From contig JAIQFI010000024.1 in the NCBI GenBank assembly GCA_020073345.1, positions 1 to 64,000 on the forward strand: DNA of 64,000 bases. The letters run 5' to 3'. Positions 32,516 through 36,402 of this stretch are shown one piece after another. A program made the translations under genes and the position numbers. Position 1 is the stretch's first letter. Each line of letters starts with the position of its first letter. The notes under the pieces are model-generated. The model was given only the letters and a program-made list of their open reading frames with translations, was not told the DNA's origin and did no database searches. The stretch is from Terriglobia bacterium. Its GTDB lineage: Bacteria > Acidobacteriota > Terriglobia > Bryobacterales > Bryobacteraceae.

Positions 32516-33934
32516 GTGTTTCGCGGGCAGCGCCACAGGGTCAGAATCCTATTCGGGACGGCGGACGTCGTCCTGATCCTGCTCGCCTTTGCCCTGGCGT
32601 ATGCGATTCGTTCGCGCCTGAATCTTGAACACGAGTTCTCCATCCCGCGGGGTGTCGGTGCATCCCTGCTGATCTGGTCCATGGTGGTCTGGGTGGCGAC
32701 GGGAGCCTGGTGGGAAACCTACGACCGCATCGACGCCACTCACCCCCGCGTCATTCTGCGCCATGCGTTCCGTCAGTGCCTGTTGGGCGCGCTGTCGGTC
32801 ATTCTGTTCCAGTACTTCTGGCGCCTGGATCTTAGCCGTTTGTTTGTCGGGCTCTTTGCTGGTTGCACGTGGTTCTTACTGTGCCTGTTCCGCCTGAACG
32901 CCGGGCTTCTGCTGCGCGTGGTGCGCCGCGAATTTTCGGTGCCGCATTATGTAATGGTGGTGGGTTTGGGTGACGCAGCACTCCGGATCGGCCGGCAATT
33001 GGAAGACGCGGGCGCATCCCACGGCATCCGGTTGCGGGGTTTTTTCGCAGATTCTCCAGAAACGCGATCTGCGCCTGTCGAACTTGGACAAAGCTACCCC
33101 GTCCATGCCATTCGTGAGCTTCCGGAATTGTTGCGCAGCCACGTGATCGACGAAATCATCTTCGCCACGGACAGTCGCCGCCTGGCGGAATTAGAAGACG
33201 TGATGCTGCTGTGCGAGGAAGAGGGCGTGCGCACGCGCATTGCAGTAGGTTTTCTGCCCCACGTGAACAGCCGCGTATATTTGGACCGGTTGGGAACGTC
33301 TCCGCTGCTGACCTTTTCGTCGACCCCGCACGATGAGATCCGTCTATTGGTGAAACGCGTGACCGACATCGTTCTGGCGGGCGCGGCTCTGCTCTTGCTG
33401 TTTCCCGTCATGCTCCTGATTGTGATTCTGGTCCGGTTGACATCGCCCGGACCCGCGATCTTCCGCCAGGAACGCTGCGGACTGAACGGGCGACGCTTCG
33501 TGTTTTACAAGTTCCGCTCCATGTGCCTGGATGCGGAGGCCCGGCGTGAATCGGTAGAACACATGAATCAGCGGGATGTGGTGATGAAGATTCCCAACGA
33601 TCCGCGGCTCACGGGAGTCGGCCGGTGGCTGCGGAAATTCTCGGCTGACGAGTTGCCGCAACTGTGGAACGTGCTCAAGGGTGACATGTCCCTGGTGGGT
33701 CCCCGGCCCGCGATTCCCTCCGAGGTGGAACAATATAAGCGGTGGCAGCGACGGAGGCTGCGAATGCGGCCGGGTTTGACCTGCCTGTGGGCGATCAGCG
33801 GGCGCGACGAGGTCGACTTCGAGACCTGGATGAAGCTCGACATGGAGTACATCGACAACTGGTCTCTCGGGCTGGACTGGAAAATTATTTTTAAGACGAT
33901 TCCCTCCGTGCTCATCGGCCGGGGCGCGCACTAG
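32516..33934 (+). CDS. Polyprenyl-phosphate sugar-1-phosphate transferase (WbaP/WcaJ-like)
   Basis: 472 residues. Four N-terminal membrane segments (about 15-125), a CoA-binding-like Rossmann region (VMVVGLGDAALRIGRQLE, about 145-270), a fifth membrane segment near 290 and the C-terminal sugar transferase domain with KFRSMCLDAEAR, KFSADELPQLWNVLKGDMSLVGPRPA and the late GITG-like region. This family loads the first sugar onto undecaprenyl phosphate for exopolysaccharide or O-antigen synthesis. GTG start at 32516. It leads a three-gene set with the phosphoribosyltransferase 9 bases on and a sulfatase-like gene. Confidence 0.9.
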   Translation: MFRGQRHRVRILFGTADVVLILLAFALAYAIRSRLNLEHEFSIPRGVGASLLIWSMVVWVATGAWWETYDRIDATHPRVILRHAFRQCLLGALSVILFQYFWRLDLSRLFVGLFAGCTWFLLCLFRLNAGLLLRVVRREFSVPHYVMVVGLGDAALRIGRQLEDAGASHGIRLRGFFADSPETRSAPVELGQSYPVHAIRELPELLRSHVIDEIIFATDSRRLAELEDVMLLCEEEGVRTRIAVGFLPHVNSRVYLDRLGTSPLLTFSSTPHDEIRLLVKRVTDIVLAGAALLLLFPVMLLIVILVRLTSPGPAIFRQERCGLNGRRFVFYKFRSMCLDAEARRESVEHMNQRDVVMKIPNDPRLTGVGRWLRKFSADELPQLWNVLKGDMSLVGPRPAIPSEVEQYKRWQRRRLRMRPGLTCLWAISGRDEVDFETWMKLDMEYIDNWSLGLDWKIIFKTIPSVLIGRGAH

Positions 33935-33943
33935 GCCTATTCT

Positions 33944-34558
33944 ATGGAACTGGTTCCGACACAAGAGGACGTAAAGGCACTTCTGCGCCAAACCGGCGGG
34001 TTGCGCGACGGACATTTCGAGTATCCCGGCGGCCAGCACATCACCGAATACCTGCAGGTGGCGCTCACCATGCGCGATTACCAGGCCGCCAAGGTCCTGA
34101 GCGTGGGATTGAGCCGCAAGGTGCGCGCGAACACCGAGATTCGCGCCATGATCCCGGAGCTTTCCGTGGTAGCGCCGGCGACGGGCGGCCTCCCGGTGGC
34201 CTACGGCGTATGTGAAGCCCTGCGGGCTCGTCAAGTTTATTGGGCCGAGCGCGAGAACGATAGCGAGCCTCTCCATTTCCGCCAATATTTGGAAGTGCGC
34301 CCGGGCGAAAAAGTGCTCCTGGTGGACGATATCCTGCGCACCGGCCAGAAGCTCGCCGAGGTCAAGAAATTGGTCGAGGAGCGCGGCGGGGAAGTGGTCG
34401 GATTGGCGGTGGTGGTCTATCAACCCAATCCAAGCCGCGCGGACTTCGGTCCGCTGCCGCTTTATTATCTGGCGCAGCTGGACGGCCAATACTACTCGAA
34501 CGCGGCGGCTTGCGAGCTGTGCAAGCGCCGCGTGCCGTTCGACAAAGTTCGTTTATAG
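33944..34558 (+). CDS. Type I phosphoribosyltransferase, PyrE-like
   Basis: 204 residues. The PRPP-binding motif LLVDDILRTGQKLAE at about 125-140 and the N-terminal hood GHFEYPGGQHITEYL are those of orotate phosphoribosyltransferases (OMP synthesis in the pyrimidine pathway). The C-terminal CELCKRR is a pair of cysteines that may bind metal. It is tightly linked (9 bases) to the sugar transferase. Whether it uses orotate or another base is not settled; an additional PyrE may exist elsewhere. Confidence 0.8.
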   Translation: MELVPTQEDVKALLRQTGGLRDGHFEYPGGQHITEYLQVALTMRDYQAAKVLSVGLSRKVRANTEIRAMIPELSVVAPATGGLPVAYGVCEALRARQVYWAERENDSEPLHFRQYLEVRPGEKVLLVDDILRTGQKLAEVKKLVEERGGEVVGLAVVVYQPNPSRADFGPLPLYYLAQLDGQYYSNAAACELCKRRVPFDKVRL

Positions 34559-34570
34559 AAAGGTTCGTTT

Positions 34571-35329
34571 GTGACTCGTCGAACGATCCTTCTGGCTCCG
34601 CTCGCGCTGGCGGCACAATCGGTCCGGCCTCGAGTTCAGATCCTATGGATCGACGGATCTGCCGTACCAGAGGAGTTCGGGCGCGACAGCGTGGTCTTTC
34701 CAAGAGCTTATACGTGTTGTCCCGCGGCGGGTCTCGCGCGACGCGCACTCGAAACGGGACGATTTCCGCACGCGGCGCGTCCGGCGAATCCTTCGGTTAC
34801 GAGCCTGGTGGGATCCGGCTCCGACACGATCACCGTGCTGACCGCGGAATCGGGGAATGGCGAAGACTCGCCGTTTCAGCGATCTGTGTTGGTGCCGCTG
34901 GCGATTCGCTGGCCGGGAAAGCTGAAGCCGCGCGTCGCGAACGATCTGCTCATTTCGCACGCCGACCTGCTGCCGACCTTGCTCGCGTTTTTGGGACTTA
35001 CGCCGCCGGAAGGATTGCAGGGCCGCGATCTCTCAAAGTTGATTGAAGGCGGCCAGGGCGAGTTGCCAGATTCGGTCTACGCCGAGGGCAGGCTGGGCCT
35101 ACCGGGCGAATGGCGCTTGGTGGTTCGCGGGTATGACAAGCTGGTGATTCGTCCACAAGAAGAAGCGACGCGCCTCTACAATCTGGCCGACGATCCCAAG
35201 GAAGAGAACGACTTGGGGCACGACCGCGAGCACGAGCTGACACGCGATTCCATGGTGGCGCTGGCAAGGCAGTGGATGCGCAAGCTGGGGGACGGCGTGG
35301 ATCCCTCAGGATTGCGATTAAGGAATTAG
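34571..35329 (+). CDS. Degenerate (inactive?) sulfatase-like protein
   Basis: 252 residues, about half the normal sulfatase length. Familiar sulfatase pieces are recognisable: the CxPxR region reads CCPAAG (Cys49-Pro51-Ala53), the following ETGRFPHAARP, a mid-segment TVLTAESGNGE that stands where DHG normally occurs, VPLAIRWPGKLKPRV, HADLLPTLLAFLGL and the late RLYNLADDPKEENDLG. The arginine of CxPxR is alanine and the metal ligands of the DD and DHG motifs are absent, so formylglycine formation and catalysis are doubtful. The frame is unbroken. The GTG start has GAAAGG seven bases upstream, and the gene follows the sugar transferase and phosphoribosyltransferase by 12 bases. Confidence 0.75.
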   Translation: MTRRTILLAPLALAAQSVRPRVQILWIDGSAVPEEFGRDSVVFPRAYTCCPAAGLARRALETGRFPHAARPANPSVTSLVGSGSDTITVLTAESGNGEDSPFQRSVLVPLAIRWPGKLKPRVANDLLISHADLLPTLLAFLGLTPPEGLQGRDLSKLIEGGQGELPDSVYAEGRLGLPGEWRLVVRGYDKLVIRPQEEATRLYNLADDPKEENDLGHDREHELTRDSMVALARQWMRKLGDGVDPSGLRLRN

Positions 35330-35356: not shown

Positions 35357-35980
35357 CTACTGTTTTGGAGGTGGATCGGTGGGACGCCGAAGCGTGGGAG
35401 CTTTCTTCGGAGTATTCTTCTTCTCCTGCTCCTTTTTCTCCTTCGCCTCGTCGGAGGTAAGGGCGGCGGTGCGCGCGGCCTTTTCCTTCGAGTCCTTCGC
35501 GGCCACCTCAGCGGCGCGGCCGCCCAGGTCGGCTTGCGAGAGCTCCAGGCTGTCCGAGGTCGTGTCGATGGCGTCCTTCAACACGAAGTCGTAGCGCGCC
35601 AGATCGGACGGCTCGGATTTCTGGATCTTCTGCAAGCGCGCCAGCATGGTGCGCTCGCTCTCGACCGTGGCGGCCATCCCGAGGTTGATAGCGACCTTGC
35701 GGCGCAGCGCGTCATCGGCAACCGTATCGATGGCGTCGATGATTTTGGTGTAATCCTCGAGCAGGTCGTGAATCAGGACGGAGCGGCCGGGTTTGTTCTG
35801 CGCCACCAGCTGATCCACCTGTTCCACACGCTGCTTGGCGAAGACCAGATAGAGCTTGAGCCGTTCGTTGGGCTCCTGAACCAGGCGGACCTGATCGGCT
35901 TCGTCGTTCGTGAGAAAGTCGCGCCCCACTTGCGCCGTTAGAGGAAGGCCGACCAAAAGCGACACCAGCAGAGTCTTCAT
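35357..35980 (-). CDS. Exported helical protein, unrecognised
   Basis: 207 residues. Signal peptide (1-16), long helical middle (about 25-160) and a Lys/Glu/Pro-rich tail (KKEQEKKNTPKKAPTLRRP). I do not recognise a family. Its start overlaps the stop of the upstream gene in an ATGA arrangement, so it is coupled to it. It is the last gene of the leftward run starting with priA. Confidence 0.6.
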   Translation of the reverse strand: MKTLLVSLLVGLPLTAQVGRDFLTNDEADQVRLVQEPNERLKLYLVFAKQRVEQVDQLVAQNKPGRSVLIHDLLEDYTKIIDAIDTVADDALRRKVAINLGMAATVESERTMLARLQKIQKSEPSDLARYDFVLKDAIDTTSDSLELSQADLGGRAAEVAAKDSKEKAARTAALTSDEAKEKKEQEKKNTPKKAPTLRRPTDPPPKQ

Positions 35981-36402
35981 TTTTTCTTCCCCATGATCCC
36001 GGTGATCAGCTTATCGTGAATCTCGGAAACCGTGTGTTGCGCCGATTCCACCACGCTGCGGTCCAAGGCACTCATCAAGTCACTCAGGTTATCCAGACGG
36101 CGCAGAATCTGGCGCGTGGACTTCTCAGCGTCCTTGAACGGTTTGGAGTTGCGCCGTGGGTCTTTCCCGGTCGCCATCAGCGACTCGTAGGAAAGCTGCA
36201 CACCTGCCTCCACTTCGCCCAGTGCGGCGCGGCTGGCCTCCAGATCGCCTTTTTTATATGCGTCACGGGCGGCGTCCAGGGAGGAATCGGCGTATCGCAG
36301 CGCCAATTCACTGCGCTTTTCCAATTTTGGCTCGGACTTGATTCCGGCCAGATCCATCGCCAATAAGTCCAGCACGAGCATGAGGGTAAGTAGCAGATGC
36401 AT
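35977..36402 (-). CDS. Exported helical protein, unrecognised
   Basis: 141 residues. A signal-like N-terminus (MHLLLTLMLVLDLLAMDLAG) is followed by helices with an alanine-rich, TPR-like segment (DAARDAYKKGDLEASRAALGEVEAG). No family recognised. It lies 4 bases after the TPR gene and overlaps the next; the three exported proteins probably form a unit at the envelope. Confidence 0.55.
   Translation of the reverse strand: MHLLLTLMLVLDLLAMDLAGIKSEPKLEKRSELALRYADSSLDAARDAYKKGDLEASRAALGEVEAGVQLSYESLMATGKDPRRNSKPFKDAEKSTRQILRRLDNLSDLMSALDRSVVESAQHTVSEIHDKLITGIMGKKK

Follow-up and report, generated by a model that had tools for sequence, protein, structure and literature searches.

The gene at positions 34571 to 35329 on the forward strand of the window (the whole 64,000 nt stretch of DNA that was analysed) encodes a 252 aa mini-sulfatase, the catalytic residues of which have been lost throughout its clade whilst the sequence has remained under purifying selection; by these criteria it is a pseudoenzyme. 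Taking together the open reading frame, Pfam matches, dN/dS, an AF2 model and structural alignment, it is very probably a pseudoenzyme that has been kept, as the initial annotation of this region had suggested. The fuller statement, that this is an exported pseudo-sulfatase, kept by selection, with a non-catalytic binding or scaffold role, is in our judgement evenly poised, and binding as the specific function is proposed tentatively.

The coding sequence is a single uninterrupted frame of 252 codons with a GTG start and no internal stops. A GAAAGG motif (34558 to 34563, forward strand), 7 nt ahead of the GTG, is a likely ribosome-binding site on the basis of its sequence and the table of intergenic gaps; it begins on the final base of the upstream stop codon. 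The open frame, the good ribosome site and the sulfatase framework segments described in the initial annotation are thus all present, with RWPGKL, LPTLLAFLGL and RLYNLADDPKEENDL each found in the translated protein. Profile homology to S1 sulfatases is evident from the Pfam SGSH_C model, which matches residues 102-227 at 45 bits (cut-off 29.3); the Sulfatase model scores 25.6 bits (cut-off 25) over residues 99-142 only, corresponding to the last part of the model, and the NCBIfam arylsulfatase and choline-sulfatase models match approximately residues 101-233 with scores far under their cut-offs. The product was also thought to be of half length, with about 200 central residues missing. It is indeed short, having 252 aa compared with 438 aa in G115, an intact-looking family member, and 415-468 aa in the six Cys-bearing relatives aligned; the missing sequence, however, counting gaps of at least 4 residues, sums to 184 residues spread over five stretches of 4, 12, 9, 151 and 8 residues. 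The 151-residue block is where the GKWH and PPH segments sit.

Within a genus set of 23 genomes, which includes the window's own, 16 orthologues were aligned. All have open frames; seven are short, at 244-260 aa (G000, G018, G019, G020, G014, G008 and G004), and nine are longer, at 343-391 aa. Hence the complete breakage or absence of orthologues, which had been named as fatal to the idea of a kept gene, was not observed. Matches were obtained in 55 of the 61 genomes searched with the window protein because this query also reaches general sulfatases.

Alignments with Cys-bearing relatives, which have CSPSR, CGPSR or CTPSR at this point, place the CxPxR slot at A53-G54-L55-A56-R57 (34727 to 34741, forward strand). 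They exclude CCPAA (residues 49-53), the CxPxR equivalent put forward in the initial annotation, as its CCP lies two to four places ahead of the slot. This C49-C50-P51 motif (34715 to 34723, forward strand) is invariant in the alignment of the seven short genus forms. The two residues are the sole cysteines of the window protein, and could possibly form a vicinal disulfide if it is exported. At the end of the slot, G018 retains R57, whereas G019 and G020 have Lys, and G014, G008 and G004 have lost the residue. The metal site has fared similarly, as originally claimed: the first-strand Asp pair falls in an alignment gap (an ungapped reading by eye gives D28, then T, T and K in close orthologues), and the counterpart of DHG is E93-S94-G95. 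The latter ends the former calcium-binding strand and loop (residues 86-95, TITVLTAESG; 34826 to 34855, forward strand), identified by pattern search and alignment, which has lost its metal ligands: the positions of D317 and N318 of AtsA are E93 and S94 in the window protein, and H/S, A/S and A/Y in G014, G008 and G004. The positions of active-site His211 and Lys375 correspond to a gap and a Glu. Across the seven short genus forms, none of the ten catalytic positions retains its residue throughout; all ten are filled as expected in G115.

Three S1 patterns were used as given in the available extract of PMC5066984: the updated PS00523 catalytic-site pattern, the updated PS00149 pattern (GY..GK.[W]H) and Ca-binding 2. 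The first was found in G031 and G035 but in none of the 16 genus orthologues, the window protein included; the second was likewise found in none of the 16, the segment being deleted in the window protein; and the third was found in three of the 16, every one a longer form, and not in the window protein. These patterns were missed by 12, 9 and 7, respectively, of 26 control proteins, and G031 misses Ca-binding 2; owing to this strictness, the residues at the slot were inspected directly. The looser [CS]x[PA]xR is found somewhere in 24 of the 26 controls and at the slot in none of the 16 genus orthologues, all of which lack the formylglycine Cys there.

Structure prediction, recommended as a check in the initial annotation, returned a truncated sulfatase fold with a pLDDT of 88.6 and a pTM of 0.85, from an input alignment of 30 sequences (the window protein, three relatives and 26 sulfatase-like proteins) whose full-length family members may pull the short model towards the family fold. 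VIA-align placed 229 of the 252 residues onto BT1596 (5g2u; rmsd 2.2, Z 22.7), and the best 50 of 469 Foldseek matches were sulfatases or sulfamidase throughout. The retained part is confidently predicted to be a truncated sulfatase fold. A longer Cys-less form, L090, was modelled with a pLDDT of 90.1 and a pTM of 0.90, with 344 of 374 residues aligning to 8di0 (Z 41.8). The window protein is therefore like S1 sulfatases (Pfam Sulfatase and SGSH_C; BT1596) in the modelled fold of what it retains, including the C-terminal half, the first strand and the helix that formerly carried the formylglycine, but unlike them in having no formylglycine Cys, CxPxR, GKWH, PFF..PH segment or calcium ligands.

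A Tat-like signal peptide, judged by eye from the alignment, occupies residues 1-17 (34571 to 34621, forward strand, as are all features in this paragraph). Its twin Arg is shared with the Cys-bearing relatives and is found in 38 of 38 aligned family members; the window's genome has two matches to TatC, and export through Tat is predicted. No membrane segment was apparent by eye past the signal, which is the sole long N-terminal hydrophobic stretch. The model assigns the first strand and the former formylglycine helix to an N-terminal fragment (residues 19-70; 34625 to 34780). This is followed by the joint of the large deletion, as located by alignment (residues 71-84; 34781 to 34822), where pLDDT is low (mean of 56 for block 71-80), and by the sulfatase C-terminal half (the SGSH_C region, residues 102-227; 34874 to 35251), in which the alignment shows EWR, RG.DK and LYNL.DDP.E. 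The C-terminal tail, D241-R251 (DGVDPSGLRLR; 35291 to 35323), is conserved, yet residues 241-252 are poorly modelled (block means of 63 and 47).

Upstream of the gene, and on the same strand, lie a polyprenyl glycosylphosphotransferase (EPS_sugtrans, 472 aa; 32516 to 33934) and, 9 bp after it, a coupled PyrE-like phosphoribosyltransferase (204 aa; 33944 to 34558), both identified from Pfam and NCBIfam matches; a further 12 bp separates the latter from the mini-sulfatase. Given these tight gaps, a single transcript is likely in the window. The 'surface-sugar operon' of the initial annotation can be upheld to the extent of a single sugar-phosphate transferase and a single PyrE-like gene, but a Pfam scan of the seven genes between 30897 and 36402 revealed no other EPS gene. 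The PyrE-like protein scores under the pyrE_Therm cut-off; an orthologue (59% or more) is present in 22 of the 23 genus genomes, and a second copy, of 30-35% identity, in 20 of the 23. On the reverse strand, 35357 to 36402 contains two convergent hypothetical genes of 207 and 141 aa, which are kept after the locus in G020, G018, G019, G002, G022, G003 and G011, and which in G012 follow a PyrE-like gene without a sulfatase.

In 12 of the 15 genomes that have the pseudo-sulfatase and the PyrE-like gene on one stretch, the two are same-strand neighbours with a gap of -4 to +12 bp, and the sugar transferase is upstream in the same 12 (12 of 16 orthologues). The remaining three gaps are of 942, 944 and 1360 bp, and in G015 the two genes are on separate contigs. 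An opposite-strand cpaF-like gene lies between them in G005 and in G244, the latter from another genus, and in G010 and G013 another gene is inserted. Similar genes of around 280 aa are inserted between the PyrE-like gene and the pseudo-sulfatase at L046 (8112-9053) and L048 (8484-9427), the former having no Pfam matches. In L082 (G016) the transferase is broken into two frames, and in L045 (G005) only its first 85 or so residues match. Amongst the stretches fetched from outside the genus, the transferase and PyrE-like gene were found in G244 only.

The divergent cpaF-like gene (T2SSE) is next upstream in 11 of the 35 loci examined, counting G005 and G244, with midpoints 1.2-1.4 kb apart, and in other genera it adjoins Cys-bearing (G031, G035) and Cys-less members alike. 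As this ATPase is the commoner neighbour elsewhere, the contiguity with the sugar transferase in the window is probably a later, derived state; the conservation of gene order that the initial annotation proposed to examine is real, but is probably not ancestral. Divergent cpaF-like genes beside Cys-bearing or Cys-less sulfatases were noted at L045, L199, L050 and L051, and at the G114, G116, G117, G157, G161, G162 and G170 loci. The ATPase was considered as an obligate partner and rejected: a close copy (at least 75% identity) is absent from the window's genome, where the best match is 55%, and present in G012, which has no pseudo-sulfatase. A TrmO-like protein is encoded downstream in five of the 35 loci, one of which was Pfam-scanned.

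No copy of the pseudo-sulfatase was found in seven of the 23 genus genomes. The contigs of G001 and G006 run out beyond the PyrE-like gene; G012 has a clean absence, the next conserved gene directly following the PyrE-like gene; G009 and G016 have other genes at the locus; G007 has no match whatever; and in G017 the PyrE-like orthologue was not found either. G007, G009, G012 and G016 seem truly to be without the gene, which would therefore be dispensable over evolution. In a tree of the transferase and PyrE-like proteins, the short-form species cluster with G001, G007 and G009 in a ten-member group (82/82, which is not strong), hence there may have been a single shortening in the genus, followed by loss. 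The locus is also carried by the MAG contig L089 (CALQCC020000029.1), the Bordetella parapertussis label of which looks wrong.

The same-strand arrangement of the transferase, PyrE-like gene and pseudo-sulfatase, which 12 genomes of the genus share with gaps of -4 to +12 bp, would suit a regulator of surface-polysaccharide synthesis, sensing or controlling the product of the co-transcribed sugar-phosphate transferase in the manner of YejM, which, according to the available extract of PMC7576196, shows that a sulfatase fold can serve envelope control. YejM/PbgA/LapC is like the mini-sulfatase in having a sulfatase-fold domain, which in YejM has an envelope role instead of acting as a sulfatase. 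According to the same extract, YejM has a 5TM membrane domain, and its metal site is reported to be intact, with phosphatase activity, although the authors note earlier work that saw no enzyme; the mini-sulfatase has neither the 5TM domain nor an intact metal site, and no membrane segment past its signal was evident by eye. Searches with phmmer gave E values of 0.14 or worse against YejM chains, and kinship past the fold superfamily is not claimed. Furthermore, the tight order is probably derived, is interrupted by intervening genes in G005, G244, G010 and G013, and has its transferase and PyrE-like components outside the genus in G244 only, among the fetched stretches. We therefore regard regulation as unlikely.

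A profile search of 237 family genomes (E 1e-25) matched 173, with scoring limited to eight candidates per genome. Twenty regions were retrieved, and 38 proteins aligned; the rows from outside the genus comprise 19 of the 20 chosen regions, G184 having been left out as its N-terminal part is missing, plus G024, G031 and G035. As regions were chosen as top scorers or for short frames, Cys-less forms are over-sampled in the tree, which was built from 175 shared columns and has 16 of its 35 inner branches poorly supported. Members were classed as dead if they have no Cys at the slot, although G225 has a Ser (SSPSR) and may be active. Ser at the formylglycine slot is accepted by some maturases. 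Nor does a Cys prove activity, both first-strand Asp residues being lost in the Cys-bearing G176.

Other genera contain more Cys-less or shortened members alongside Cys-bearing kin. The 14 forms of 320 aa or less require five changes on the tree, at least three of which are forced by well supported branches; these three could in principle represent one shortening and two regains, but regain of a lost segment is taken to be unlikely. The six Cys-bearing members are scattered over the tree, again requiring five changes. Placing all short forms in one clade is rejected (p-AU 0.0007, from a biased sample), as, weakly, is a single clade of all Cys-less members (p 0.0255; 0.0246 when the Ser-type G225 is excluded), and the ends of the deletion vary by lineage. 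The SGL[KR] motif of the C-terminal tail is found in 20 of 32 Cys-less and three of six Cys-bearing members, and in none of the 26 controls. A Cys at position -3 relative to the lost formylglycine site (17 of 32 Cys-less members, none of the six Cys-bearing and three of 22 control sulfatases) was rejected as the mark of one dead lineage, as it requires eight changes, a single clade is rejected and it is present in controls too. We put at slightly less than an even chance the reading that a Tat-exported S1 subfamily has turned independently, at least three times, into pseudoenzymes of 244-311 aa through overlapping central deletions, each reduction keeping the signal, the former formylglycine helix and the C-terminal sheet (with the basic SGL[KR] tail in 11 of 14), and that a non-catalytic job of the glycan-binding or docking class predated the loss of catalysis. 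Recurrent loss of catalysis within one family, with dead forms retained, is also known from fungal Dis3/RNase II, where the available extract of PMC8097288 describes repeated pseudonuclease evolution and reports RNA binding. That system differs in fold and kingdom, and in the mini-sulfatase the loss comes with truncation and binding is only putative. A search by title and the start of the abstract, with most subscription journals lying outside it, found no paper on sulfatase pseudoenzymes in Acidobacteriota.

The strength of constraint, together with the invariance of C49-C50 and several Asp, Glu, Arg and Lys residues in the seven short genus forms, could instead signify an enzyme whose active site has migrated to other residues, the second outcome that the initial annotation had considered damaging. 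However, most of the residues shared by at least 85% of the 32 Cys-less members are kept in the six Cys-bearing ones too, and hence look structural; the short forms have a single invariant His, H67, the substrate-side segment is gone and no substitute site is evident among the conserved residues. A migrated site is accordingly improbable, and the sequence suggests that the protein lacks catalysis.

The pseudo-sulfatase might alternatively serve an active sulfatase of its own cell as a partner or decoy; in support, 18 of the 23 genus genomes have a Sulfatase-family hit with an E value of at most 2.2e-50. The window's genome, which is 97.5% complete, has three such family hits: a 561 aa sulfatase-fold protein, a 512 aa phosphodiesterase (PF01663, 154 bits) and another long protein, inspected by eye. 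All three lack both the strict catalytic pattern and any GKWH-type motif, although a chance [S]x[PA]xR occurs in each, and service to an active S1 enzyme is therefore unlikely in this genome, where the gene is kept. The search missed the pseudo-sulfatase itself, so weak members can escape it, but an intact sulfatase should not. The gene is also kept in G010 and G013, which have no strong hit, their top Sulfatase-family match being the dead gene itself. A partner or decoy role is thus very doubtful. The FGE family (PF03781) was discarded as a proxy for sulfatase maturation, being too broad, with hits in 21 of the 23 genus genomes.

Comparison of orthologues, also advocated in the initial annotation, gave a dN/dS of 0.111 (range 0.087-0.139; NG86, six pairs of G000, G018, G019 and G020), a rough estimate at a mean dS of 1.09; this lies inside the range of 0.041-0.155 for 12 of the 17 neighbouring genes used in the gene-order comparison. 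By region, the values are 0.077 for residues 19-70, 0.093 for 85-165, 0.080 for 166-252 and 0.18 for the signal, the most relaxed stretch being the deletion joint, residues 71-84, at 0.33. Further pairs within the genus gave 0.12 (G002/G003), 0.19 (G010/G013), 0.28 (G014/G008), 0.18 (G021/G022) and 0.33 (G010/G015), and others 0.26 (G157/G154), 0.18 (G005/G244), 0.27 (G116/G114) and 0.42 (G161/G162), some being near saturation. In neutral simulations of random mutation without indels, taken to the observed 23% divergence, the frame stayed open in 0.27% of 3000 runs. A relic gene in decay, as the loss of the catalytic motifs and 184 residues and the lack of a found copy in seven of 23 genus genomes (a clean gap in G012) might suggest, is scarcely credible and is contradicted by the dN/dS of 0.11 and the open frames of all 16 aligned copies, there being neither relaxed constraint nor broken frames, and the signal, tail and coupling being conserved.

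On this evidence, the formylglycine and metal sites of an S1-type sulfatase, along with the bulk of its central segment, would have been lost. Selection maintains what is left: a signal peptide, some of the core sheet, and the C-terminal sheet with a basic tail. This sheet and tail may bind a glycan or partner protein without cleaving it, a role that is favoured because these parts survive each reduction. The family forms a graded series, from Cys-bearing sulfatases through near-full-length Cys-less forms to those of half length, with the reduced forms under measurable selection, and so lends itself to the question of which sulfatase parts have a use once catalysis is gone. In these genomes a match to the Sulfatase or SGSH_C model does not by itself signify sulfate release; and, if the reading of recurrent reduction is true, the active site would have been dispensable for an older, non-catalytic job of the subfamily.
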